NCBI GenBank assembly: GCA_963971305.1
Contig: OZ020316.1
Location: 17,564,745-17,628,744 of the forward strand
DNA from: Arcuatula senhousia
Lineage: Eukaryota; Mollusca; Bivalvia; Mytilida; Mytilidae
Length of the DNA: 64,000 nt
Direction of reading: 5' to 3'
Shown here: positions 1 through 32,215 of the stretch, piece after piece
Numbering within the stretch: position 1 is the stretch's first letter
Layout: every line of letters starts with the position of its first letter
Program-made: the position numbers and the translations under genes
The notes under the pieces: model-generated
What the model saw: only the letters and a program-made list of their open reading frames with translations
Databases searched by the model: none
Told to the model about the DNA's origin: nothing

Positions 1-3000
1 CGATGGCTATTTTGGGTGGCATAGGGACTAGGTGGCATAGAGAGGGGAGGTATAGAGGTGCATGACCCAAGTCTCAAAAGTTGGCCACGGCTTCCGGTTC
101 CGGTCTGATAATGATAGCGATTTTGTTATAAAGTGTGCCTGGGTGGGTCCTTTCGACCCCGGATTTGACCCCGATGGCTATTTTGGGTGGCATAGGGACT
201 AGGTGGCATAGAGAGGGGAGGTATAGAGGTGCATGACCCAAGTCTCAAAAGTTGGCCACGGCTTCCGGTTCCGGTCTGATAATGATAGCGATTTTGTTAT
301 AAAGTGTGCCTGGGTGGGTCCTTTCGACCCCGGATTTGACCCCGATGGCTATTTTGGGTGGCATAGGGACTAGGTGGCATAGAGAGGGGAGGTATAGAGG
401 TGCATGACCCAAGTCTCAAAAGTTGGCCACGGCTTCCGGTTCCGGTCTGATAATGATAGCGATTTTGTTATAAAGTGTGCCTGGGTGGGTCCTTTCGACC
501 CCGGATTTGACCCCGATGGCTATTTTGGGTGGCATAGGGACTAGGTGGCATAGAGAGGGGAGGTATAGAGGTGCATGACCCAAGTCTCAAAAGTTGGCCA
601 CGGCTTCCGGTTCCGGTCTGATAATGATAGCGATTTTGTTATAAAGTGTGCCTGGGTGGGTCCTTTCGACCCCGGATTTGACCCCGATGGCTATTTTGGG
701 TGGCATAGGGACTAGGTGGCATAGAGAGGGGAGGTATAGAGGTGCATGACCCAAGTCTCAAAAGTTGGCCACGGCTTCCGGTTCCGGTCTGATAATGATA
801 GCGATTTTGTTATAAAGTGTGCCTGGGTGGGTCCTTTCGACCCCGGATTTGACCCCGATGGCTATTTTGGGTGGCATAGGGACTAGGTGGCATAGAGAGG
901 GGAGGTATAGAGGTGCATGACCCAAGTCTCAAAAGTTGGCCACGGCTTCCGGTTCCGGTCTGATAATGATAGCGATTTTGTTATAAAGTGTGCCTGGGTG
1001 GGTCCTTTCGACCCCGGATTTGACCCCGATGGCTATTTTGGGTGGCATAGGGACTAGGTGGCATAGAGAGGGGAGGTATAGAGGTGCATGACCCAAGTCT
1101 CAAAAGTTGGCCACGGCTTCCGGTTCCGGTCTGATAATGATAGCGATTTTGTTATAAAGTGTGCCTGGGTGGGTCCTTTCGACCCCGGATTTGACCCCGA
1201 TGGCTATTTTGGGTGGCATAGGGACTAGGTGGCATAGAGAGGGGAGGTATAGAGGTGCATGACCCAAGTCTCAAAAGTTGGCCACGGCTTCCGGTTCCGG
1301 TCTGATAATGATAGCGATTTTGTTATAAAGTGTGCCTGGGTGGGTCCTTTCGACCCCGGATTTGACCCCGATGGCTATTTTGGGTGGCATAGGGACTAGG
1401 TGGCATAGAGAGGGGAGGTATAGAGGTGCATGACCCAAGTCTCAAAAGTTGGCCACGGCTTCCGGTTCCGGTCTGATAATGATAGCGATTTTGTTATAAA
1501 GTGTGCCTGGGTGGGTCCTTTCGACCCCGGATTTGACCCCGATGGCTATTTTGGGTGGCATAGGGACTAGGTGGCATAGAGAGGGGAGGTATAGAGGTGC
1601 ATGACCCAAGTCTCAAAAGTTGGCCACGGCTTCCGGTTCCGGTCTGATAATGATAGCGATTTTGTTATAAAGTGTGCCTGGGTGGGTCCTTTCGACCCCG
1701 GATTTGACCCCGATGGCTATTTTGGGTGGCATAGGGACTAGGTGGCATAGAGAGGGGAGGTATAGAGGTGCATGACCCAAGTCTCAAAAGTTGGCCACGG
1801 CTTCCGGTTCCGGTCTGATAATGATAGCGATTTTGTTATAAAGTGTGCCTGGGTGGGTCCTTTCGACCCCGGATTTGACCCCGATGGCTATTTTGGGTGG
1901 CATAGGGACTAGGTGGCATAGAGAGGGGAGGTATAGAGGTGCATGACCCAAGTCTCAAAAGTTGGCCACGGCTTCCGGTTCCGGTCTGATAATGATAGCG
2001 ATTTTGTTATAAAGTGTGCCTGGGTGGGTCCTTTCGACCCCGGATTTGACCCCGATGGCTATTTTGGGTGGCATAGGGACTAGGTGGCATAGAGAGGGGA
2101 GGTATAGAGGTGCATGACCCAAGTCTCAAAAGTTGGCCACGGCTTCCGGTTCCGGTCTGATAATGATAGCGATTTTGTTATAAAGTGTGCCTGGGTGGGT
2201 CCTTTCGACCCCGGATTTGACCCCGATGGCTATTTTGGGTGGCATAGGGACTAGGTGGCATAGAGAGGGGAGGTATAGAGGTGCATGACCCAAGTCTCAA
2301 AAGTTGGCCACGGCTTCCGGTTCCGGTCTGATAATGATAGCGATTTTGTTATAAAGTGTGCCTGGGTGGGTCCTTTCGACCCCGGATTTGACCCCGATGG
2401 CTATTTTGGGTGGCATAGGGACTAGGTGGCATAGAGAGGGGAGGTATAGAGGTGCATGACCCAAGTCTCAAAAGTTGGCCACGGCTTCCGGTTCCGGTCT
2501 GATAATGATAGCGATTTTGTTATAAAGTGTGCCTGGGTGGGTCCTTTCGACCCCGGATTTGACCCCGATGGCTATTTTGGGTGGCATAGGGACTAGGTGG
2601 CATAGAGAGGGGAGGTATAGAGGTGCATGACCCAAGTCTCAAAAGTTGGCCACGGCTTCCGGTTCCGGTCTGATAATGATAGCGATTTTGTTATAAAGTG
2701 TGCCTGGGTGGGTCCTTTCGACCCCGGATTTGACCCCGATGGCTATTTTGGGTGGCATAGGGACTAGGTGGCATAGAGAGGGGAGGTATAGAGGTGCATG
2801 ACCCAAGTCTCAAAAGTTGGCCACGGCTTCCGGTTCCGGTCTGATAATGATAGCGATTTTGTTATAAAGTGTGCCTGGGTGGGTCCTTTCGACCCCGGAT
2901 TTGACCCCGATGGCTATTTTGGGTGGCATAGGGACTAGGTGGCATAGAGAGGGGAGGTATAGAGGTGCATGACCCAAGTCTCAAAAGTTGGCCACGGCTT

Positions 3001-3385
3001 CCGGTTCCGGTCTGATAATGATAGCGATTTTGTTATAAAGTGTGCCTGGGTGGGTCCTTTCGACCCCGGATTTGACCCCGATGGCTATTTTGGGTGGCAT
3101 AGGGACTAGGTGGCATAGAGAGGGGAGGTATAGAGGTGCATGACCCAAGTCTCAAAAGTTGGCCACGGCTTCCGGTTCCGGTCTGATAATGATAGCGATT
3201 TTGTTATAAAGTGTGCCTGGGTGGGTCCTTTCGACCCCGGATTTGACCCCGATGGCTATTTTGGGGTGGCATAGGGACTAGGTGGCATAGAGAGGGGAGG
3301 TATAGAGGTGCATGACCCAAGTCTCAAAAGTTGGCCACGGCTTCCGGTTCCGGTCTGATAATGATAGCGATTTTGTTATAAAGTG
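1..3385. repeat. 171-bp tandem satellite array, about 19.8 copies
   Basis: A unit starting CGATGGCTATTTTGGG recurs at 1, 172, 343 and so on to 3250, giving a strict 171-bp period. Units look identical by eye except the last, which gains one G (TTTTGGGGTGG) and stops after about 136 bp at TTATAAAGTG. The array continues past the left edge. Although 171 is a multiple of three, stops close all six frames, so it is non-coding. No transposon ends were recognised in the unit. Confidence 0.98.
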
Positions 3386-7563: not shown

Positions 7564-9651
7564 CTAGGAACACGCGAGTCGAGCCTGGTAATTTTTACCA
7601 AAGTTTAAACTTTAAATTCATATAGGTGAATTGAGTCTCATGATTTTTACTAACCCGTTAAGGATTTTTCATATTCAATTTTTCTAATGGCTTTCAGTCC
7701 TTTTTTAGCTCACCTGGACAAAAGGTCCAGGTGAGCTATTGTCATCGCTTGGCGTCCGTCGTCCGTCTGTCGTCCGTCGTCCGTCTGTCATCCGTCGTCC
7801 GTCGTCTGTCCGTTCAACTTTTCAAAAATCTTCTTCTCTTAAACCGCTGAATCAAATGGAATGAAACTTGGTATGATAGTTTTTTAGGGCGTCTTCTACA
7901 AAAATGCCGTTGGGATTTTTGATTCGGTGAAAAACATGGCTGCCAACATAGGGAAAATTGCAGTTTTTCGCAAATTACTCGAAACGGTCACAGATATCAA
8001 AATTCTGGCGTAGGTTAAGGTAATTAGCACCTCAAGATCTACCTGCCCTGAAATTTTTAAGAAGATCAGAAAACTTATGTAGGAGTTATTGCCCTTTTTC
8101 TGAATTTTTTCCAAATTTTGCACTTATTTAACCCTCTATCTTGAAAACTATACAAGATATCTGAAAATTTAAATTGCATATGATTAAGCACATCAAGATC
8201 TACAAATGATATAATGGGGGGGGGTCAAAGTCCTAGGAACATTCCTTATAGGAGTTTTCCCCCTAAGACTGTCAAAATTGACCATATTCAGTGTTTTTCA
8301 TCCTATTTTCAAACGTTAAGTTCTCTAACACCATAAGTCTCACAATTACCAAACTTGGTGTGGTAGACCTTTGAGGTATGGTTTACAAAACTATCGTTTG
8401 GATTTTGAAAAGTCTCTATAGGGTCGAAGTTGTCAGATGTCCCCTTATAGGGGTTACGGCTCTTAAAATAACGTTTTTTTTCAGGTTTTTGGCCTATAGA
8501 ATGAAAACTATTGCTGGCTTAAATGTTCAGTTCATTTAGCGCTACAAAAGTTTTCATAGGAACGAAGTTGTCAGATGACCCCTTATAGGGGTTACAGCCC
8601 CTTAAAGGTAAAAATAGCGTGTTTTCATGTTTTTGCCCTAAAGTATGAAAACTATTGCAGAAAGAGAAAAGCTGTTGCTTGCTTAAATGTTTAGCTCATT
8701 TAGCTCTACAAAAGTCTCCATATGGTCAAAGTTGTCAGATGACCCCTTATAGGGGTTATAGCCCCTAAAATAACTAAAATAACGTTTTTTCATGCTTTTG
8801 ACCTATAAAATGAAAACAGTAGCAGATAGACAGATGGTGTTGCTTGCTTAAATGTTCAGCTCACTTAGCTCTATAAAAGTCTCCATACGGTCAAATTTGT
8901 CAGATACCCCTTATAGGGGTTACGGCCCCTAAAATAAAGTTTGTTCATGTTTTTGGCCTATAAAATGAAAACTATAGCAGATAGAGAGAAGCCGTTGCTT
9001 GCTGAAATGTTCAGCTTATTTTCCTCTGCAAAAGTCTCTTTAGGGTAGAAATTGTCAGATGTCCCCTTATAGGGGTTACGGCCCCTAAAATAACGTTTTT
9101 TTCATGTTTTTAGCCTATAGAATGAAAATTATAGCAGATAGAGAAAAGCTGTTGCTGGCATAAATGTTCATTTAGCTCTCAAAAGTCTTCATAGGACCGA
9201 AGTTGTCAGATGACCCCATATAGGGGTTACAGCCCCTTAAAGGTGAAAAAAAAATGCTTTTTGCTTATAGGATGAAAACTATTGCGGATAGAGAAAGGCT
9301 GTTGCTTGCTTAAAAATTCAGATCATTTAGCTCTACAAAAGTTTTCATAGGGTGGAAGTTGTCAGAAACCCCTTATAGAGGTTATGGCCCCTAAAATAAC
9401 TTTTTTTCATAATTTGGGCCTTTACGGCTTCATAGAATGAAAACTATAGCAGATAGAGAAAAGCTGTTACTTGCTTAAATGTTCAGCTCATTTAGCTCTG
9501 CAAAAGTCTTTATAGGGTCGATATCAAGACCAGGTGAGCGGTTCAGGCTCCTGGGAGCCTCTTGTTTGTTTTTAAGATAATGTAATTGGTTATAAGAAAA
9601 GTATTTTGCAGAGTTGGTAAAAATTACCTGGCTCGATTTGCGTGTTCCTAG
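7564..9651. mobile_element. 2.1-kb TIR element carrying the AGCTCACCTGG block
   Basis: CTAGGAACACGCGAGTCGAG at 7564 pairs with the complementary end at about 9614-9651 (TTGGTAAAAATTACC...CGTGTTCCTAG), giving imperfect TIRs of about 38 bp. Inside is a repeat block opened by a perfect hairpin (7707-7737, AGCTCACCTGGAC arms), followed by a GTCCGTCGTCC tract. It ends near 9530-9565 with CCAGGTGAGC and a GGCTCCTGGGAGCC palindrome. No coding capacity was seen. Confidence 0.65.
8427..9400. repeat. Degenerate tandem repeat, about seven units of 138-164 bp
   Basis: The core GTTGTCAGATGACCCC plus TTATAGGGGTTACGG recurs with CCCC starts near 8441, 8579, 8743, 8907, 9063, 9213 and 9369. Each unit also repeats 'atgaaaactat(a/t)gcagatagag' and 'ttagctctacaaaagt'. 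Divergence between units is much higher than in the satellite at the left edge. Confidence 0.85.
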
Positions 9652-18516: not shown

Positions 18517-19722
18517 TCAAAGCAACGTAAGACGATTTTTCAATATTGCCATTAAAGCAACAGTTGAAACTGCAAACAAAATCAGTAATACCCAGAACAT
18601 TACAAAATCGATGGTGGCAGTCACATCAGCCCACGTGGGTTCTGGTGGATCTTGGCTTTCCTCTTTTTTCTTCTGTTGGCCTTCTTCGTCGTCTACGCGG
18701 TTATTTTTACAACAACACTTGCACTTGATCAAAGAAGCAAGGCATCTAGGAACGGGACTTTCTCTATGGTGCAGGCGCAATTGGACTGAAGTTAGGGCCA
18801 CAGTTAGCACCCCGAAACCAAATAATTCCATCATATAGTAACCAAGATAGGAACCGGTAGATCGAGGAAGTTCCGAGCTAACAATGGTAAGGAAAACGGC
18901 AAACGAAAGGAACACCGTCATGGCATAACCCATTTTTTCTCCGCTGTCAGCCGGAATCACATAGGTGAAAACATTGAGAAGACCAAGAAAGATAACCGGT
19001 ATAATAATATTAAAGATGTAATATTCTGCATTGCGCTCAATAGTTAAGGTGAAAGTGACCTTAGATTCCATTCCTTCTTTATCTTCCTTGGCAGAAGTGG
19101 AAACTATTTTCCATTCGCCGCCGTCTTCAACTTCCTCCAGGCCGATGCCATTACTTCCAAGAGTTACGTTTACATCAAATATTTCGTATGACCATACTAC
19201 AAATACTAGATCACAAGTTTGCTGGTCGAAAGGAAAATATGTAATGGAGATGTCACATTTCGAATCAAATACCTCTAACGGCTGCCACCACACATGGCCA
19301 GTGGAAAGAATCTTTACTAAAACGAAATCTGAGCCTAGTTCGCTGAGCTTTTTGAATCCATTTTTAAGTGTAATGTCTGGTTTCCAAATCATATCTTGTG
19401 GCACGTAAATTTGCATAACATCCATCGGGTCATCCCAGGTCAGAAATTCGTCCCTCCAAAACATTGGAAGATACCCAGTGGTGGTCAGTTTACCTTCAAC
19501 TTCATTAAGGCCATTGATTCCAACCAACACAAAGTCAAGGTCAACTTGCATAGGAGTCATATGATCTGCCATCGGTCGAACGATTGGGTCATACTCGTTT
19601 GTTTCAAACAATTTTTTTATCAGAGCCTTAGTGGCATTTCCTGACTGACCATGGCACGCGGAAAATAAACACGTCGCAATAAGTATCATCATCTGCATCA
19701 GTGCAAATCTATTTGAAAACAT
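18517..19722 (-). CDS. Nicotinic-type Cys-loop ligand-gated channel subunit, intronless
   Basis: The 401-residue uninterrupted frame has the complete order of a pentameric ligand-gated channel. Residues 1-25 are a signal peptide. The extracellular domain has loop-A-like WKPDI (113-117), the Cys-loop C156-C170 with exactly 13 residues between, and Trp177 at the loop-B position. M1 is about 234-256, M2 about 262-284 (preceded by DSGEK, the cation-channel pattern), M3 about 293-316, and M4 about 371-394. The M3-M4 loop is short and has a CKCCC cluster (334-338) and an acidic/lysine stretch. The vicinal Cys pair of alpha-subunit loop C is absent from about 205-222, so it is either a non-alpha-type subunit or answers to another ligand. 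Lack of introns suggests origin by retroposition, as reported for expanded bivalve receptor families. The frame is intact, so function is likely. Confidence 0.93.
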   Translation of the reverse strand: MFSNRFALMQMMILIATCLFSACHGQSGNATKALIKKLFETNEYDPIVRPMADHMTPMQVDLDFVLVGINGLNEVEGKLTTTGYLPMFWRDEFLTWDDPMDVMQIYVPQDMIWKPDITLKNGFKKLSELGSDFVLVKILSTGHVWWQPLEVFDSKCDISITYFPFDQQTCDLVFVVWSYEIFDVNVTLGSNGIGLEEVEDGGEWKIVSTSAKEDKEGMESKVTFTLTIERNAEYYIFNIIIPVIFLGLLNVFTYVIPADSGEKMGYAMTVFLSFAVFLTIVSSELPRSTGSYLGYYMMELFGFGVLTVALTSVQLRLHHRESPVPRCLASLIKCKCCCKNNRVDDEEGQQKKKEESQDPPEPTWADVTATIDFVMFWVLLILFAVSTVALMAILKNRLTLL

Positions 19723-22746: not shown

Positions 22747-22764
22747 ATATGGGTCATTATCAAA
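22747..22764 (+). repeat. Left TIR of the 6-kb transposon
   Basis: ATATGGGTCATTATCAAA is identical to the reverse complement of 28753-28770. The GGG start marks the probable cleavage end. Confidence 0.85.
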
Positions 22765-23124
22765 AAACGTTAATATTCATGTAATTCGGGTATACACGGA
22801 ATATTTAAAGTTATTTAACTTATGTTTTAGATCAGATTAAATTTTAGCAGCACGGGGAACATTTTCTACAGAGGAAATGTTTGTTTTCAGATTTTTTCTT
22901 ATCATAAGTTGTTGCTAAACTGGTAAAAATGGGATAAAACTGCTTGTAATTTCGCCGTGGTCAGAGATTCTTCATTAAAATTTTCTTTTAAAAAACAAAT
23001 ATTTCAACAAGAAATTTTGAATAAATTTACTACTTAGCATATTCTTTAGAAATAAAAAACAACAATGATCCCTAGATTAAAGATTTTCAGAAAAAAATAT
23101 TTGTAAAGCTGTGTAACTGTCGCC

Positions 23125-24098
23125 GTGTCCCTTGTGTTACTTAATACATAAATAGGTAAGTAACAGTTGTCTCTCTTATATTACTGACATTTGGAGTATC
23201 CCCCCTTGAAGTCATACTTCCTGTATTGAATTATGGGTATTGGAGCAGACAACATGGCATTTGAAAAACAACTTTTTTGAAGTCTGAGGTATGTTTTCTG
23301 AAACCGTAATTTTTATTTATGTCCATATTGTTACTGCATGTTTGCAACCATATAATAATACTATAGTATCCAAAATATGTCCAAAATGTGTATTCAGTGG
23401 TATACTAAGGAAAACAAACTGATTATTTTTTCTAAACAGTGTACATTGTCATCAATACTGAAATAACTACCAAATATGTCCCTTGTGTTACTGTCCCTTT
23501 TGTTACCTTAAATTATGTAACACAAGTGACCAATTTCGTAACAAAAGGGACAAATATGGGATTTTTTCTGCGTTTTCAGGTTTACAAGTGAAAATTTTAA
23601 TGCAAAGATGTATAATAAAGAAATGTTTATGATATTTTTTTATTATGAATATTATTTTACATTAACCAAAGTCTATATTATTTAGTATTATAGAAAACGT
23701 AACAAAAGGGACAAACAAGGTAACAAAAGTGACAGATAAATAGTTGTTTTAAAAACAAGTGTATGCATGAAAAAAGTAATTTTTGATTCATGAATATTAT
23801 TAATATAGATGAATTTATAATATGCACAAGTAAATATTAGTTTATATATCACAAAAAAGACACAAAATTTGTATGTCTTGATAAAACGACCCTTATACTT
23901 TCCGGTAACACAAGTGACAACAAGCTGGTAAAATTATCAATGTTCCCTCCTTAAGGTTGTATACAATATTGGATTTTTTACTTTTAAATAAACTTTTTAT
24001 GCAATTTTATCTGCATATTTCGTTTTCTGCTTCAACATATACACACTTATTACTTTCATTGAAGATAACACATGACTCTGTCGGTAACATAAGTGACA
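23125..24098. promoter_or_regulatory. Left subterminal array of a 15-bp quasi-palindrome (nine sites)
   Basis: The consensus is GTAACAHAAGKGACA. Minus-orientation copies lie at 23126-23140, 23477-23491 and 23492-23506. Plus-orientation copies lie at 23517-23531 (last base C), 23538-23552, 23699-23713, 23720-23734, 23905-23919 and 24084-24098. Spacing is irregular, but two pairs sit exactly 15 or 21 bp apart. The half-sites GTAAC and GTGAC are nearly inverted, as expected for a site bound by a dimer. The location between TIR and gene suits transposase binding or promoter control. Confidence 0.85.
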
Positions 24099-24260
24099 CA
24101 ACATTAGTAATTATGATTTGTCAAAGCAATTAAAAGACAATATCAAAATAGGTTTGGATTGAAAACAATCTTACTGTATACAGAAATTGTAAGGAATACT
24201 TTAACTTATTGAATATTTTAATCTAATATGGAATTTTCAATTGTATTTTCAGAATTAAAG

Positions 24261-27200
24261 ATGCCACTGTCCAACGCAGAAAAACAGCGTCGATACAGAC
24301 AAAAGCGGGACGCAGATCCTATTAGAAGAGCTGAACATAAAGCAAAATGTAAAACCAAGTATCAAGAGGATCTGGCTGTTGGGAAACGGAAGTTGATAAA
24401 AGACATGAGTCCTAGAGAACAACGTGCTGAGAGAAAATCATGGAAAAAGAGAAAAACTTCCCAGCGCAAAAGAAAAAGAAATGACGAAGAGATTCTTACA
24501 CCACCTTCATCTCCCGTGCGTGATAGTCCAGATGTTCAACCTATGGCCATGGGACATCAGAATACTCGTAGGAAAAAGAGAAACATAGCCAAATGCTACA
24601 GAGACAATGCAAAATTAAGACAACAACTTGAAGCTCAAAAACGACGAAATAACAAATTGCTTGTACGAATACATAGACAAAAGTTAAAAGAAAAGACACC
24701 CGACTCACCAAGAACAAAAACCAACAAATTGTTGAGAAATTGGAGTACAGAAAAGGGCACTCATACAAGAAAGGAACGAAGAGATAAGAAAAAAAGAGCA
24801 AAGAAGGCACTAGTTTTTCAGTTAGCATTGAGTGAGGAACTGAAGGAGAAATATAAGCGCTCAAAACAAAAGGAAAAAAACTACTTATCGGAATTAACTA
24901 GAGGAAAACTCATGAAGAGATATAAATTGATTGACAAAACAAGAGAAGAGCTCAGGATGAAAGCAGGAACAAAACGCTTCAAAAAAGGAACATTGTCATA
25001 CAGACTAGAACCACAAGTATTTGCTTTCTACGAGAGAGATGATAACAGCAAAATTACAGCGGGTATGAAGGACACTGTTACAAAGCAAGGTGTGAAAAAA
25101 CAGAGAAGAATATTGACAGATACCATTGAAAGGATACATGAACGTTTCCTAATTGAGAACTCTGATATCGATGTGAGTTATACTACATTCTGCAGATTAA
25201 GACCATTCTGGGTTCAACCTCCAAAGGAAGCAGATCGGGTTACATGCGCATGCAAACAGCACGAAAACATGCAATTTCTTGCAGACGCCATGTATAATAT
25301 CGACCGCATTAAATCAAGATCTCTTTCTACACTTGTGAAGAACTTTAGCTGTGACATCAGTAACTTAGATTGTATGTACGGGCGTTGTACAAAATGCAGA
25401 GATGTAATTATCCCTGACTTTGGACACAATAAAGATGATGAAGAAAACAATCGCGATACAACAGTTAACAACGATGATGACGAAACGTCGTGGTTTCAAT
25501 GGGGGTCGATAAGGCCAAAGCGATTAATAAAAGGCAAGGAGAAAGAAGTCACAATTACAGTAAAGGAAAGGGTGAATGGCAGTATTAAAGAACTCAAGAC
25601 TAAATTTTCTGAGGATATGAAACGATTCAAGATTCATTCGTTTAATATAACAAATCAAATTGGTTATTACCGTAAGCTCAAGGAATCTTTAAAGGAAAAT
25701 GAAGCTCTTATTCATGTCGACTTTGCTGAGAACTTTCAATGTAAACTAGCAAGTGAAATTCAAGACGTGCATTTTGGGGCTTCAAAAAAGCAAATCACAC
25801 TCCACACAGGTGTCTACTACATGAAATCGGGTCCGGAAACGTTTTGTGGTGTGTCAGATAGTTTGGATCACAATCCCAGTTCAGTCTGGGCATTTCTCGA
25901 TCCCGTTTTAGATAAACTATTGCTAGAAAATCCAAGTATTGATACGATGTACTTCTTCAGCGATGGACCAGCAACGCAGTATAAACAAAAAGGAAATTTC
26001 TTTCTTTTTACGCATGAAATGTCAAAGAGAGATTTATCTGGATATTGGAACTTTCACGAGCATGGTCATGGGAAAGGGGTACCAGACGGTGTAGGAGGTG
26101 CGCTGAAAAGAAGGGCAAATGACGTGGTGCTTCACGGACAAGATATAACAAATGCCAAGTCTTTTGTTGAAAAGTGTAAGGCCGATTCGGCCGTGTTTAT
26201 ATATGAAGTGGCACAACAGGAGATAGACAATAAATCGCTTGTCCTTTCGAAAGAAACATTAAAGCCCATAGTAGGAACACAAAAGATTCATCAGATAAAG
26301 TATGCTGGATTTGGAGAAGTTATGTACAGGGATATAAGCTGTTCATGCAGGGATGACACCTTGCATCAAGGACATCAATTAAAATCCCATTCGCTCATCG
26401 AAAAAAGAACAGAAAAGCAGAGAAACAAAGCATGTGACAAGTCTACTGTAGAAACAGAACTTCATAAAAATGAATCGAAAAAAGTTAATATGACACCAAC
26501 AACAATAGACATAAGTGAAGATAAGACTATTGCGAGAAATTATTTTTTCTCAAGAATGTTGAAAGAACTAGGACAGTGTATAACGTTTGAGCAGATACAA
26601 AACAAATGTACTGAAATATATAGAGCGATTGAAGAAAAAGGGTATGATTTAGACGATACATACTCAGCATGCATTATAAATACAGGTCTAGAAATTGACG
26701 CAGATGCACTTTTGATATGCCCTACTGATATACCATGCAATACCGCAGCCCTGAATCCTATTAAGGTGACAGCTGATGGCAATTGTTTACCATATTCGGG
26801 TAGCATAATTGCGACTGGAAAAGAGGAATCAGGAGAGGAAATCAGAGTGAGAATAATTGTTGAATTAGCTCTCTACAAACATTTGTATTTGAATCAACAA
26901 TTCTTAGAAAAAGGAACTGAACACAGAAATCGAGATATTGCAAAGACTTATGCATTATATTCAGATGAATATGCTAATGAAGCCCTCTCGCCCTATCAAA
27001 TTGAACGAATATTTGAGAAAGAGGTAATTAAGATAACGAAGAACAAATCATACATGGGAATTTGGCAGCTATGTGCATTATCTGGTGTTCTTGGCCGTCA
27101 AATTTGTTCAATTTATCCCAAATTAGGAAACCCGGTGGTACGAAAAGATCTCCATCGCTTGATAGAGCCGAGGGAATTGAGAAATACTGAACGTGGATAC

Positions 27201-27728
27201 ATTCTTTGGACATCGACACGTCAGGATATGAACAGAGGCAATTGGATACCGAATCATTTTGTAGCTTTACTGCCAATGAATCCAGTATCTAACCCAGAAG
27301 CACATAAAGACAAAGCTTACAACTCAGAAGTGAGAAAAGACAATGATTCTAGCTTAGAAGAGTGTACAGACAAAGATTCATGCAGACATGAGAGCATAGA
27401 TAATGACTCTGGTAAATCAGTAGATGATGTGTCTGGTCGTCGTCCAGAAGATTTAAAGGGACTTTATGTACTTGTCAATTATGACAACCACCCTTATCCA
27501 GGCATTGTTTTAGATTGTGACAAGACTGAACTTTTTGTCCGCTGTATGCGCAATGCAGAAAAGGACCTTTCAAACAACTCATTTTATTGGCCTCTTGCGG
27601 TAAAGGATCAGTTGTGGTATGGTATGAGTGAAATCATTTGCCTCATTCCTGAGCCTAAGTCCGTCGGAACAAAGTATCATGTAGACAATGAACTATGGAA
27701 ACGAGCCCTGCAAAAGCTAAATAAATGA
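24261..27728 (+). CDS. Transposase with DDE-like core, OTU/vertnin-like and SH3/Tudor-like C-terminus
   Basis: The frame is open from an ATG at 24228 (1166 codons). I prefer Met12 at 24261, because TGTATTTTCAG (24242-24252) just before it looks like a splice acceptor for a 5'-UTR intron and MPLSNAEKQRRYRQKR is a natural start. Numbering from the upstream Met, residues 12-270 are very basic with coiled-coil-like stretches. A Cys/His cluster (CACKQH about 345; CDISNLDC to CTKC about 375-390) suggests zinc binding. Candidate catalytic acids are D498 (HVDFAENF), D579 (FFSDGPATQYKQKGNF) and E611 or D620 (FHEHGHGKGVPDGVGG). DGNCL (850-854) with NHFVALL (His1010) is the Cys-His pattern of OTU/vertnin-like domains. 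An acidic repeat linker (about 1025-1075) precedes a final module (about 1080-1166, GLYVLVNYDNHPYPGIVL) like SH3/Tudor folds. No frameshift or stop was seen, and it is the only gene between the TIRs. Confidence 0.9.
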   Translation: MPLSNAEKQRRYRQKRDADPIRRAEHKAKCKTKYQEDLAVGKRKLIKDMSPREQRAERKSWKKRKTSQRKRKRNDEEILTPPSSPVRDSPDVQPMAMGHQNTRRKKRNIAKCYRDNAKLRQQLEAQKRRNNKLLVRIHRQKLKEKTPDSPRTKTNKLLRNWSTEKGTHTRKERRDKKKRAKKALVFQLALSEELKEKYKRSKQKEKNYLSELTRGKLMKRYKLIDKTREELRMKAGTKRFKKGTLSYRLEPQVFAFYERDDNSKITAGMKDTVTKQGVKKQRRILTDTIERIHERFLIENSDIDVSYTTFCRLRPFWVQPPKEADRVTCACKQHENMQFLADAMYNIDRIKSRSLSTLVKNFSCDISNLDCMYGRCTKCRDVIIPDFGHNKDDEENNRDTTVNNDDDETSWFQWGSIRPKRLIKGKEKEVTITVKERVNGSIKELKTKFSEDMKRFKIHSFNITNQIGYYRKLKESLKENEALIHVDFAENFQCKLASEIQDVHFGASKKQITLHTGVYYMKSGPETFCGVSDSLDHNPSSVWAFLDPVLDKLLLENPSIDTMYFFSDGPATQYKQKGNFFLFTHEMSKRDLSGYWNFHEHGHGKGVPDGVGGALKRRANDVVLHGQDITNAKSFVEKCKADSAVFIYEVAQQEIDNKSLVLSKETLKPIVGTQKIHQIKYAGFGEVMYRDISCSCRDDTLHQGHQLKSHSLIEKRTEKQRNKACDKSTVETELHKNESKKVNMTPTTIDISEDKTIARNYFFSRMLKELGQCITFEQIQNKCTEIYRAIEEKGYDLDDTYSACIINTGLEIDADALLICPTDIPCNTAALNPIKVTADGNCLPYSGSIIATGKEESGEEIRVRIIVELALYKHLYLNQQFLEKGTEHRNRDIAKTYALYSDEYANEALSPYQIERIFEKEVIKITKNKSYMGIWQLCALSGVLGRQICSIYPKLGNPVVRKDLHRLIEPRELRNTERGYILWTSTRQDMNRGNWIPNHFVALLPMNPVSNPEAHKDKAYNSEVRKDNDSSLEECTDKDSCRHESIDNDSGKSVDDVSGRRPEDLKGLYVLVNYDNHPYPGIVLDCDKTELFVRCMRNAEKDLSNNSFYWPLAVKDQLWYGMSEIICLIPEPKSVGTKYHVDNELWKRALQKLNK

Positions 27729-28184
27729 CTTTTTATTATCTGAACAATCACAGCTAGTGCGAAAAGTGTACTATCATGTGATAATTTACCAATTACATAT
27801 CAAGGGGTTAACTATGGAAACGAGCTCAGATTTGTTTAAGTCACTGTTGTTACTAAAACATTTATGTTCCACATTAGTTTTTTTGGTCTAGCATTCGTCC
27901 ATTAATTGGTCCGACCGGCCGTTTGACAGCACTCCTCAAGTTAGTTCATGTTCCTGAAAGATATTGTCAATATAGCTAGTCAAATGTTTATGCTTTTAGG
28001 TAATAATTACTTGTAGCAACAGTAAAAATGTTCCACTTATAGGCTAATGCCGAACCTGGTTCATTGTAGGCACCCATCTTTAAGTAACAGTTTTTGAGTT
28101 GTATATTGACTAGATTGAAATGCCAAAGATGTTGCTATTGATACTTTAAAACAAAATGGTGTGTTAATGTTTGAATAGAACAAA

Positions 28185-28579
28185 TGTCACTTATGTTACT
28201 TTTTGTATTTTTGTGTTACTGTTTTGTCCCTTGTGTTACCGATACCAATCTTAACGATAAAAACTCCATTATTTCTAATAGAAGAACGCCTTCGGGTATC
28301 AAACTTTCCTTGTTTAGATACGTTATGATGATATAAAGAATTCATTGGCATCATATTAGTGTTAAGTTTAATGCTTAAAAGTAGAGAATGGAATTTAATG
28401 CTTTTTATTGGTATCATACATATTTCGAAAAAAACAGCAATATTTTTTACCAAAACTCAACAAAGCGTATAAAATTTTAATAATTTTCATCTATTAATTA
28501 AATTCATGATGTTACAGAGTTTTAATTGTTGAAAATGTTTTATTTTCTATTATATTTTATTTTGGTAACAGAAGGGACA
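28185..28579. promoter_or_regulatory. Right subterminal array of the same 15-bp motif (three sites)
   Basis: Minus-orientation copies lie at 28185-28199 and 28225-28239, and one plus copy lies at 28565-28579 (GTAACAGAAGGGACA). The same motif on both sides of the gene, inside the TIRs, ties both flanks to one element. The 85-codon frame at 28196-28453 on the minus strand is not a recognisable gene. Confidence 0.85.
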
Positions 28580-28752
28580 ACTGATGATACCAAGGAGGTA
28601 TTTTTTGTCATTTTTCAAAATTTCTTCGTTCAAAGTTAATGTTTGTTTGTGATTTTTATAACTTCAATAGTTTTTTGTTATTATTGAATAAAAATTGAAA
28701 GAAACTGAATCACTTCATAATTCCAAAAAATAAAAATTATATATTGACAAAA

Positions 28753-28770
28753 TTTGATAATGACCCATAT
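28753..28770 (-). repeat. Right TIR of the 6-kb transposon
   Basis: TTTGATAATGACCCATAT is the exact reverse complement of the left end. Confidence 0.85.
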
Positions 28771-28863
28771 ATTTAAGAATATCTTTAAAAGTAATACTTT
28801 TAGACTGGTTATTACTTTGGATTAGGATTTAACATAACCCTTGATTTTCAAAGAGGGATCTGA

Positions 28864-29056
28864 TGTTACAGGCTAGGGGGAAACATAACTAGCCCGTAGT
28901 TAATACTTTAAATAAGGCTGATCAAAAACACGTCTGCTGCCATTACAACATTTATTCTCTCTCAATTACGTCACATGTACAAACAATAATGTGGGAAACG
29001 GGACACAACTCTAAATTACAAAACCAATTACGACCATACAATACAACTACATAACA
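28864..29056 (-). repeat. 3' LTR of the miniature element
   Basis: 193 bp with ends TGTT...AACA. The polypurine tract lies at about 29057-29067 on the minus strand. Confidence 0.9.
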
Positions 29057-30293
29057 TCCCGCCCCTTAAACATAAAATTTCCAAAATTTTATATAATGGT
29101 CAAAAGGTTTTTGAAATTACAAAAATATATGCAATAAAAAATACAAATACCAAGGAACATTTGAAATAACTGAATCGAACTCTCTTAAATCACTCCCTCC
29201 ATCAGGTGAACATACAAGTACAAATATGCAGAAAAACCGGGAGTCTGGCATCAAAGTCAGCCGCCAGCTTACTTCATGCACGCATTACTCCCACACATAA
29301 GGGTTGAAGTCTGGCACCAGGTATCCAACTATCCGGATCTGCCATGCACGCATTACTTCCACACAGACAATATGTACAAAGACGTTACAGAAAAAAAAAC
29401 TATGCATAAAGTACTTTAACCAAACACATCGTTGGGAAAATTGTCTATTAAAATAGCTGTATAAAAATTGATATAGCCATCAGAGACCTTTGAACTCTTA
29501 ATGATATAAAAAATATATCGAGGTTTTATTTATGACATAAATCACACTGCTATAGACAATATCTTTTACAAATCAGACAAATTCAAATTCAGGAAAAATA
29601 CAAATATTCTATGCAAATATAAAAAATTTAAACATTTTAATACACAATATGGAAATGCTATCATTTCCATTCAAAATAGTCAACCTTTAAATCTGTAAAG
29701 CTGTTAAATTCTTATTTCTCTCAAAGTATAAGTCCTTCTTTTAAATGGAAATACAATTATTTCCAGTCTTCATTCTGTAAAATGTGCGTTAATCTTTAAA
29801 ACTGTAACCTCGAAATCTTCGAAAAATCTAATGTCCTGGAAAAATTATTTGCTATAGAAAATTGAAATCGTGGAAATACAATTATTTCCAATAAAAACTA
29901 AAAACGGATAGACACAATTGTTTTAACTTCCAAACACGGCCAATCAATTTTAAACTGCATGTCACTGTGGGTCAAACAGGTCAACGTTACACATAACTGT
30001 TACAAATCACAGTAATGGCAATACACAAATACATACGTTCAGTTCAGTTCAGCTATTACGTACGTTTCAAATGCATATATCTCAGTATACAAATTCATAA
30101 ATTCAAGTATCAAAAAATTCAATTTGAAGATGAAATAAGCGTCCAAGTCCGAAATGATGAAACCGGTTGAAAATTTGTTGACCACGTGGTAAAATTTCCA
30201 GCTTCCAATTGTTGATTCGAAAAAGATAAGTCCAATAATCCGTAAATCAATCACATAAAACATTGAACGGGATCCCTTTTAAGTTCTCCACCA

Positions 30294-30485
30294 TGTTACA
30301 GGCTAGGGGGAAACATAACTAGCCCGTAGTTAATACTTTAAATAAGGCTGATCAAAAACACGTCTGCTGCCATTACAACATTTATTCTCTCTCAATTACG
30401 TCACATGTACAAACAATAATGTGGGAAACGGGACACAACTCTAAATTACAAAACCAATTACGACCATACAATACAACTACATAAC
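30294..30485 (-). repeat. 5' LTR of the miniature element
   Basis: 192 bp, one terminal base shorter than the other copy. The candidate primer-binding site is adjacent at 30276-30293 on the minus strand. Confidence 0.9.
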
Positions 30486-31082
30486 TCTGATTTCTTCTTT
30501 AAAAAACATTTTAATAAGAATATGATACCCGAAATAACAGTACAATGTTGATAGATTAATACACGAAGTAACAGTACAGAATGATTTCATGAACACAGAA
30601 TAACAGTACAGTCAATATTTTTAGATTGTTGAATTTCAGTTAATAATCTATTAAATTACTAATTTTATTAATTATACTGACTAAAGATTTTATGATCATG
30701 CATTTACACTCGCTTTTCCTTCAACCCCGTATAGATTTCATATGAAATAACTGTATTTCCATTGTTTTTGTAGTAATTTTGCTTTATTGGTCATTTTTTC
30801 TTATGTTTTATGAATTTTTTGAAGATTTACTAAATATGTCCAAGACAATTATTCATTGATTTAAATTTTAACAACAAGCAGTATTAAAAATGTAAAAATT
30901 CACGACGATAACATGTTTAATGAGCCACCCATGCAAGTAGACCAGACAACATGAAATATCAGTACAGAAAAAACGTGAAATATCATTTCTCTCGCGGACA
31001 GCGTTCACCTAGTGTGAGAAAGCGCATACTTTTTAAACTGTGATTTCTTTTACATCTGTTCTTTTCGGATTATAAAAATATC

Positions 31083-32215
31083 ATGGAAGAAGCAAAGGTG
31101 TACCAAAGGGGTAATCAGTATCATATAACCGTAAAGACAAAGACAAAACAGGCAGACAAAAAATTATCACAACAAAACAAACCACATAACAACATAAAAA
31201 CACACACACATAACAACAAAACGGCATTCAGCAACGCGAACTCAAGTCAAAACGAGAGTGAACTCAGGTGCTCCGGAAGAGTAAGCAGTTCCTGCTTGCT
31301 ATAGCACACCCGTCACGTTGCCAAAGATCGAATAAATGTTGGTCAAATCCGGAAAGGATGACATTACAAAACTCTATGTCAAACCAACATATGTGCTCAT
31401 CTGAGAGATAGAAATCCCGTATTTGTAAACAAGCACATGATGTCGTCCGTAAAATTTCTTGAGTGGTGACAACAACCTGGGAGCAACGTACCCCTGTGTT
31501 AACAATTTGCTTGTCAGTCGTGTAGCTCTATCAAGGAAGTCGTTGTACTCCCCACATGCTCTGGAATAGCGAATCAATTATGATAACATAAACTCCATAT
31601 GCTGGAGCTGACGGAATGTTGCTACACAGAAAGGGAAAGTTAACTATTGGAAAGTTGAAGTCATCACGTTTGTCATAGAGCTTTGTACAAAGCCTTCCTT
31701 GTGTGTCATTTTCGAGAAATAGATCCAAATATGAAGCGGACCTCCTAGAATCTGTTGTGTCCTTTATCTCAAGTTCTTATGGATATATGAGATGTAAATA
31801 GTCACCAAATCGAGGATTGTTTAGTGAAAAGACATCATCAATATAACGAAATGTGAGTTTGAAGGATAAAGCAAGTTTGCGGTCCTTTTTGTCTAGAAGT
31901 GATTGTAAAAAGTCTGATTCATATGAATGAAGAAACAAATCGGCAAGCAATGGTGCACAATTTGTGCCCATTGGGATACCTATTGTTTGCTGAAAAACAC
32001 GTCCACCAAACTGTACAAATATGTTGTCGATTAGAAAATTGAGCATTTCTATTATTTTATCTTCTGTTAATTTGTTTTTCTTGCTAGACTCTTGGATGAC
32101 AAAGTAAGTCTTTTTAAAACCGACTACCAAACACTTGTACCTGCGTTTTCCGTTCTTTTTGATAAAGCTACGTTGAATCAGCTGTAAATAAAAATGACCA
32201 CTAAAATATGTCTAT
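31083..32215 (-). pseudogene. Penelope-like element: reverse transcriptase, thumb and 3' tail
   Basis: Reading leftwards from 32215, pieces show KKNGKRRYK, the fingers motif GIPMGTNCAPLLADLFLHS, the active-site box YIDDV, then DKRDDFNFPIVNFPFLCSN and KFYGRHH, all characteristic of Penelope-like reverse transcriptases. The frame is broken by a stop after IYP (31777-31779) and by a frameshift near 31570. The 3' tail at about 31083-31345 matches the other tails in the window. No GIY-YIG domain is attached in this copy. It is dead but less decayed than the copies at 38-39 and 44-46 kb. Confidence 0.9.

Follow-up and report, generated by a model that had tools for sequence, protein, structure and literature searches.

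The question raised by this locus is whether a long uninterrupted gene, lying between short inverted repeats, is the transposase gene of a complete DNA transposon and, if so, which superfamily that transposon resembles. The locus is part of a 64,000-nucleotide stretch of contig OZ020316.1 from the bivalve Arcuatula senhousia (assembly GCA_963971305.1), referred to here as the window. The segment from 22751 to 28766 is very probably an apparently complete, intact and autonomous cut-and-paste DDD transposon of Sola-like type, whose single protein carries an OTU domain. The coordinates of its parts are listed in Table 1.

Terminal Repeats and Flanks

The earlier note had described exact terminal inverted repeats (TIRs) of 14 to 18 bp with matching ATAT flanks, enclosing one intact gene of more than 1,150 codons with no frameshift. 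Both descriptions hold. The TIR GGGTCATTATCAAA is exact over 14 bp, the addition of ATAT extends it to an exact inverted repeat of 18 bp, and the gene is a single uninterrupted open reading frame (ORF) of 1166 codons. The looser inverted arms are 30 nucleotides long and 83% complementary. Exact matches to GGGTCATTATCAAA are found in the window at the two ends of the element only; with up to two mismatches, there are three matches against 0.87 expected.

The 2-kb flanks of the ORF were compared with 2000 Markov simulations, in which real repeats are not modelled. An exact inverted repeat of 14 bp was present in 217 of the 2000 trials, one of 16 bp in 18, and one of 18 bp in none. Given these chance rates, the 14-bp TIR by itself is weak and not convincing, while the 18-bp repeat is convincing. 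The real flanks contain seven matching inverted 14-mers, five from the terminal repeat and two from one pair of subterminal motifs. A caveat on the simulation is that the window holds 75 pairs of inverted 18-mers spaced 3 to 12 kb apart, at nine distinct centres, and the element's own repeat is one pair among them.

The presence of ATAT on both sides fits a target site duplication (TSD) of 4 bp. ATAT is its own reverse complement and can be counted both as TSD and as TIR, so the TSD length is ambiguous between ATAT and a 2-bp AT or TA; the palindrome also allows 2 bp, and one copy was seen. In a self-BLAST of the window (E ≤ 1e-4), no part of the element had a second copy, and no empty site was seen, with no match across the joined flanks beyond ATAT itself. 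No relatives were present among 107 pattern stretches from a viral contig set or 507 from a genome contig set. A scan of viral contigs for the TIR with ATAT returned one match in each of six contigs, with no second TIR in the stretches examined, and these were taken as chance matches.

Subterminal Repeats

A second repeat, GTAACANAAGKGACA, is clustered inside both ends of the element. All 11 of its exact copies in the window lie in non-coding parts of the element, and none is in the ORF. Allowing one mismatch gives 12 copies against a shuffle mean of 0.05, a count that is flattered because the pattern was derived from the same data; allowing three gives 26 copies, 11 of them outside the element. 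Even so, it is telling that the exact copies are found solely at the two ends of a single element. The repeats are likely to be binding sites of the transposase.

Predicted Catalytic Core

AlphaFold predicts an RNase H core at approximately residues 479-656 that resembles the cores of integrases and of the IstA and Mos1 transposases. The earlier note had proposed this fold at residues of about 490-640 and had named structure prediction as a check, which the model passes. The core alone had no Protein Data Bank (PDB) or viral match in Foldseek at E ≤ 0.001. No hAT or piggyBac transposase is among the 50 structure matches listed, which is not an exclusion of either.

Conservation was counted on 88 of 92 core sequences (those with 120 or more residues aligned to the core profile), with gapped rows omitted from each count. 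D498 is present in 84 of 84 sequences, D579 in 81 of 82, and D620 in 78 of 78, while E611 is kept in 74 of 79 and E501 in 81 of 84. The most distant relative, P0092, is missing E611 but keeps all three aspartates. In the predicted model, D620 falls within the opening turn of the helix that follows strand five, where the third acid is normally found. Because D620 is invariant where E611 varies, and because its helix position fits a third acid, a DDD triad is favoured over DDE. D498, D579 and D620 most likely make up the catalytic triad, and E611 is probably not catalytic. Of the DDE core suggested previously (D498, D579 and E611), the first two residues thus stand and the third is replaced. An ungapped mapping of the integrase active sites through the aligned ranges of the structure matches, with assumed residue numbers, places the HIV residue within three residues of D620 and the avian residue between E611 and D620. 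The case for D620 therefore depends on its conservation and its place in the helix.

Transposase Gene and Its Relatives

The natural start of the protein may be the ATG at 24261, because the residue equivalent to M12 is the start in 29 of the 66 relatives that have the conserved N-terminal segment. This basic, helical segment may bind DNA. A conserved Cys/His segment ahead of the core would bind zinc, and the conserved beta-rich C-terminal tail may adopt an SH3/Tudor-like fold. The sole sequence match to a PDB chain was IC97/Casc1 (E 0.0024, helical residues 186-273), which was taken as a chance coiled-coil match.

Three protein searches (44, 28 and 36 matches) gave 92 distinct homologous proteins. 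They are from bivalves, fish and insects, with Mytilus, Solemya, Magallana, four fish and three insects as named sources; one is from a bacterial metagenome-assembled genome that is probably contaminated. The closest relatives of the window's protein, by search and tree, are P0001 (59% over 99%) and the Mytilus proteins P0002 and P0003. P0092 contains C2H2 zinc fingers ahead of the same DYSEN / SDNCRTQY / HGRGLVD core, which points to a wider branch bearing zinc fingers.

No Pfam family matches the window's protein at E ≤ 10. Across the 45 members of set A1, 22 Pfam families are listed, none of which is named for a transposase or for RNase H. One of the 45 reaches DUF7869, a family that spans the second aspartate and the third acid, at E 0.023 and below the cut-off; this match was not used as a link. 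A literature search, covering few subscription papers, found none on DUF7869 or on the HGKG motif with a transposase. Sources label the relatives with terms such as "uncharacterized", "hypothetical" and "Vertnin", and none of the labels shown says transposase. Such genes are easily overlooked, since the window's protein lacks a Pfam match and the names are uninformative. The absence of a Pfam match to the window's protein, of a named transposase family across the 45 A1 members and of a transposase name among those shown for the 92 homologues also argues for a separate, undescribed DDD superfamily, with the same mechanism in a lineage other than Sola. The chance of this falls somewhat short of even, with TSD (read as 4 bp), TIR length, size and DDD triad all inside the Sola ranges in the published portions cited below.

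Predicted OTU Domain

The protein appears to join the transposase to an OTU deubiquitinase-like domain with candidate catalytic Cys and His residues. For the full predicted model, the first lists from Foldseek and VIA are mostly OTU structures. The motifs are DGNC, with C853, and NHF, with H1010. The Pfam OTU model is reached in four of the 45 A1 members (best E 0.001), and the window's protein is not among them. The earlier note does not mention this fold, the conserved tail at the C-terminus or the subterminal repeats.

Table 1. Positions in the window of the element and its features.
Feature	Position	Strand	Details
Whole element, TIR to TIR	22751..28766	+	6016 bp
Left TSD	22747..22750		ATAT (or 2-bp AT/TA; ambiguous through palindrome)
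Left TIR	22751..22764	+	GGGTCATTATCAAA, 14 bp exact
Left subterminal cluster	23126..24098		GTAACANAAGKGACA, 8 exact and 1 one-mismatch copies, both orientations
Transposase ORF	24228..27728	+	1166 aa, uninterrupted; possible true start ATG 24261 (1155 aa)
Conserved basic, helical N-terminal segment	24264..24497	+	Residues 13-90
Conserved Cys/His segment ahead of core	25236..25400	+	Residues 337-391
RNase H-like catalytic core (predicted)	25662..26195	+	Residues 479-656; D498, D579, D620
OTU deubiquitinase-like domain (predicted)	26700..27293	+	Residues 825-1022; candidate catalytic C853, H1010
Conserved beta-rich C-terminal tail	27444..27680	+	Residues 1073-1151
Right subterminal cluster	28185..28579		GTAACANAAGKGACA, 3 exact copies, both orientations
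Right TIR	28753..28766	-	Exact reverse complement of GGGTCATTATCAAA, 14 bp
Right TSD	28767..28770		ATAT

Proposed Mechanism and Alternatives

In the proposed mechanism, the transposase would bind the GTAACANAAGKGACA repeats near both ends and pair the ends. The D498-D579-D620 site of the RNase H fold would cleave at the GGGTC termini, and insertion would be into AT-rich DNA with 4 bp (ATAT) copied. The OTU domain would probably remove ubiquitin, either from the transposase to which it is fused or, at the insertion complex, from proteins of repair or chromatin; the beta-rich C-terminal tail may recognize chromatin. A fuller proposal, of rather less than even probability, is an undescribed animal DDD superfamily in which one lineage placed an OTU domain between the core and the C-terminal tail, so that the transposase would modify ubiquitin marks at the complex it forms on insertion.

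Present-day activity of the element is possible. A real element that is no longer mobile, with an intact coding sequence and ends or regulation that do not work, is a substantial possibility, if not quite the likelier one: only one copy was seen, yet the copy has no stop or frameshift, its 14-bp TIRs are exact, and its flanks match.

The same element could have a 2-bp TSD (TA, with a TIR starting TGGGTC, or AT), and its target choice would then not be Sola-like. The flanks fit both 2-bp readings, but they match over a full 4 bp, which is less likely to arise by chance, and the 2-bp TSD is considered unlikely. That the locus is a domesticated host gene with chance inverted repeats around it, as the long intact ORF, the single copy in the window and the name Vertnin given by a source to P0002 and P0003 might suggest, is very improbable in view of the 18-bp exact repeat with its ATAT flanks, absent from all 2000 simulations, the motif array confined to the element and the intact DDD residues, and because pig vertnin, likened here by description only, is described in the available part of its report with a helix-turn-helix motif like that of the IS3/IS911 transposase (PMC3024977).

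Neighbourhood of the Element

Immediately downstream, positions 28859-30490 contain two identical direct repeats of 193 bp (28863-29055 and 30293-30485), flanked on the outside by a TCTGA duplication. Between the repeats lies approximately 1.2 kb that has no 100-aa ORF, and the whole looks like a recent non-autonomous long terminal repeat element. A reverse transcriptase fragment on the minus strand (31777-32130; RVT_1 E 0.00036, below the Pfam cut-off) is one that we take to be perhaps Penelope-like. Positions 1-3385 are a satellite with a 171-bp unit repeated 19.8 times (99% matches), and 8503-9521 is a diverged tandem array of approximately 165-bp units (78% matches). An uninterrupted 401-aa ORF on the minus strand (18517-19722) encodes a neurotransmitter-gated ion channel (PF02931 E 1e-42; PF02932 E 2.5e-13).

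Comparison with Known Superfamilies

The element is filed as Sola-like rather than Sola because it was compared with Sola through published descriptions. In the available portions of those descriptions, Sola has a DDD transposase, a 4-bp TSD, TIRs of 11-1124 bp and a length mostly of 2-9 kb (PMC10741241). The TSDs of Sola2 are AWWT, ATAT included (PMC3627910), and curated bivalve Sola1 elements have a mean length of 5445 bp (PMC10294476). The DDD residues on a predicted RNase H fold and the AT-rich flanks, if read as a 4-bp TSD, account for the Sola-like fit, and the TIR length and total length are inside the Sola ranges. By description, this agrees with the previous suggestion that AT-rich 4-bp flanks fit Sola. 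An apparent difference is the OTU domain, which is not mentioned in the available portions of the Sola descriptions. No title or abstract opening among the literature matches listed, which cover few subscription papers, concerned an OTU domain in Sola.

Likeness to the retroviral integrase core is one of fold, not of demonstrated sequence kinship, with 7-14% identity among the integrase matches listed. The hAT/P/MuDR/Kolobok/Dada group shares an RNase H-fold transposase and is described, in the portion available, with a C/DxxH signature between the second aspartate and the last acid (PMC9587614); residues 579-620 of the window's protein contain no such signature.

The Ginger elements were compared through the available part of one account (PMC2836005). 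Ginger2/Tdd has a 4-bp TSD, in animals, which the element shares on the 4-bp reading, and an AT-rich target (RTATAY), but its TIRs are 50-180 bp with TGTNR termini, unlike the 14-bp TIRs and GGGTC termini found here. In Ginger1, a DDE-type core precedes an OTU (or Ulp1) protease on its C-terminal side, and the TSD is 4 bp; the position of the OTU domain is alike, as is the TSD length on the 4-bp reading. Its TIRs of 40-270 bp starting TGTNR and its CCGG/CCGT targets differ from the short GGGTC TIRs and ATAT flanks of the element. A built-in deubiquitinase role has been proposed for Ginger1 (PMC2836005). The element is a well-bounded, intact candidate for asking whether transposases use such an enzyme, and a natural comparison is offered by its relatives, some of which have the OTU domain and some of which lack it. 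The fusion of a transposase with a deubiquitinase-like domain is a combination with precedents in other transposons.
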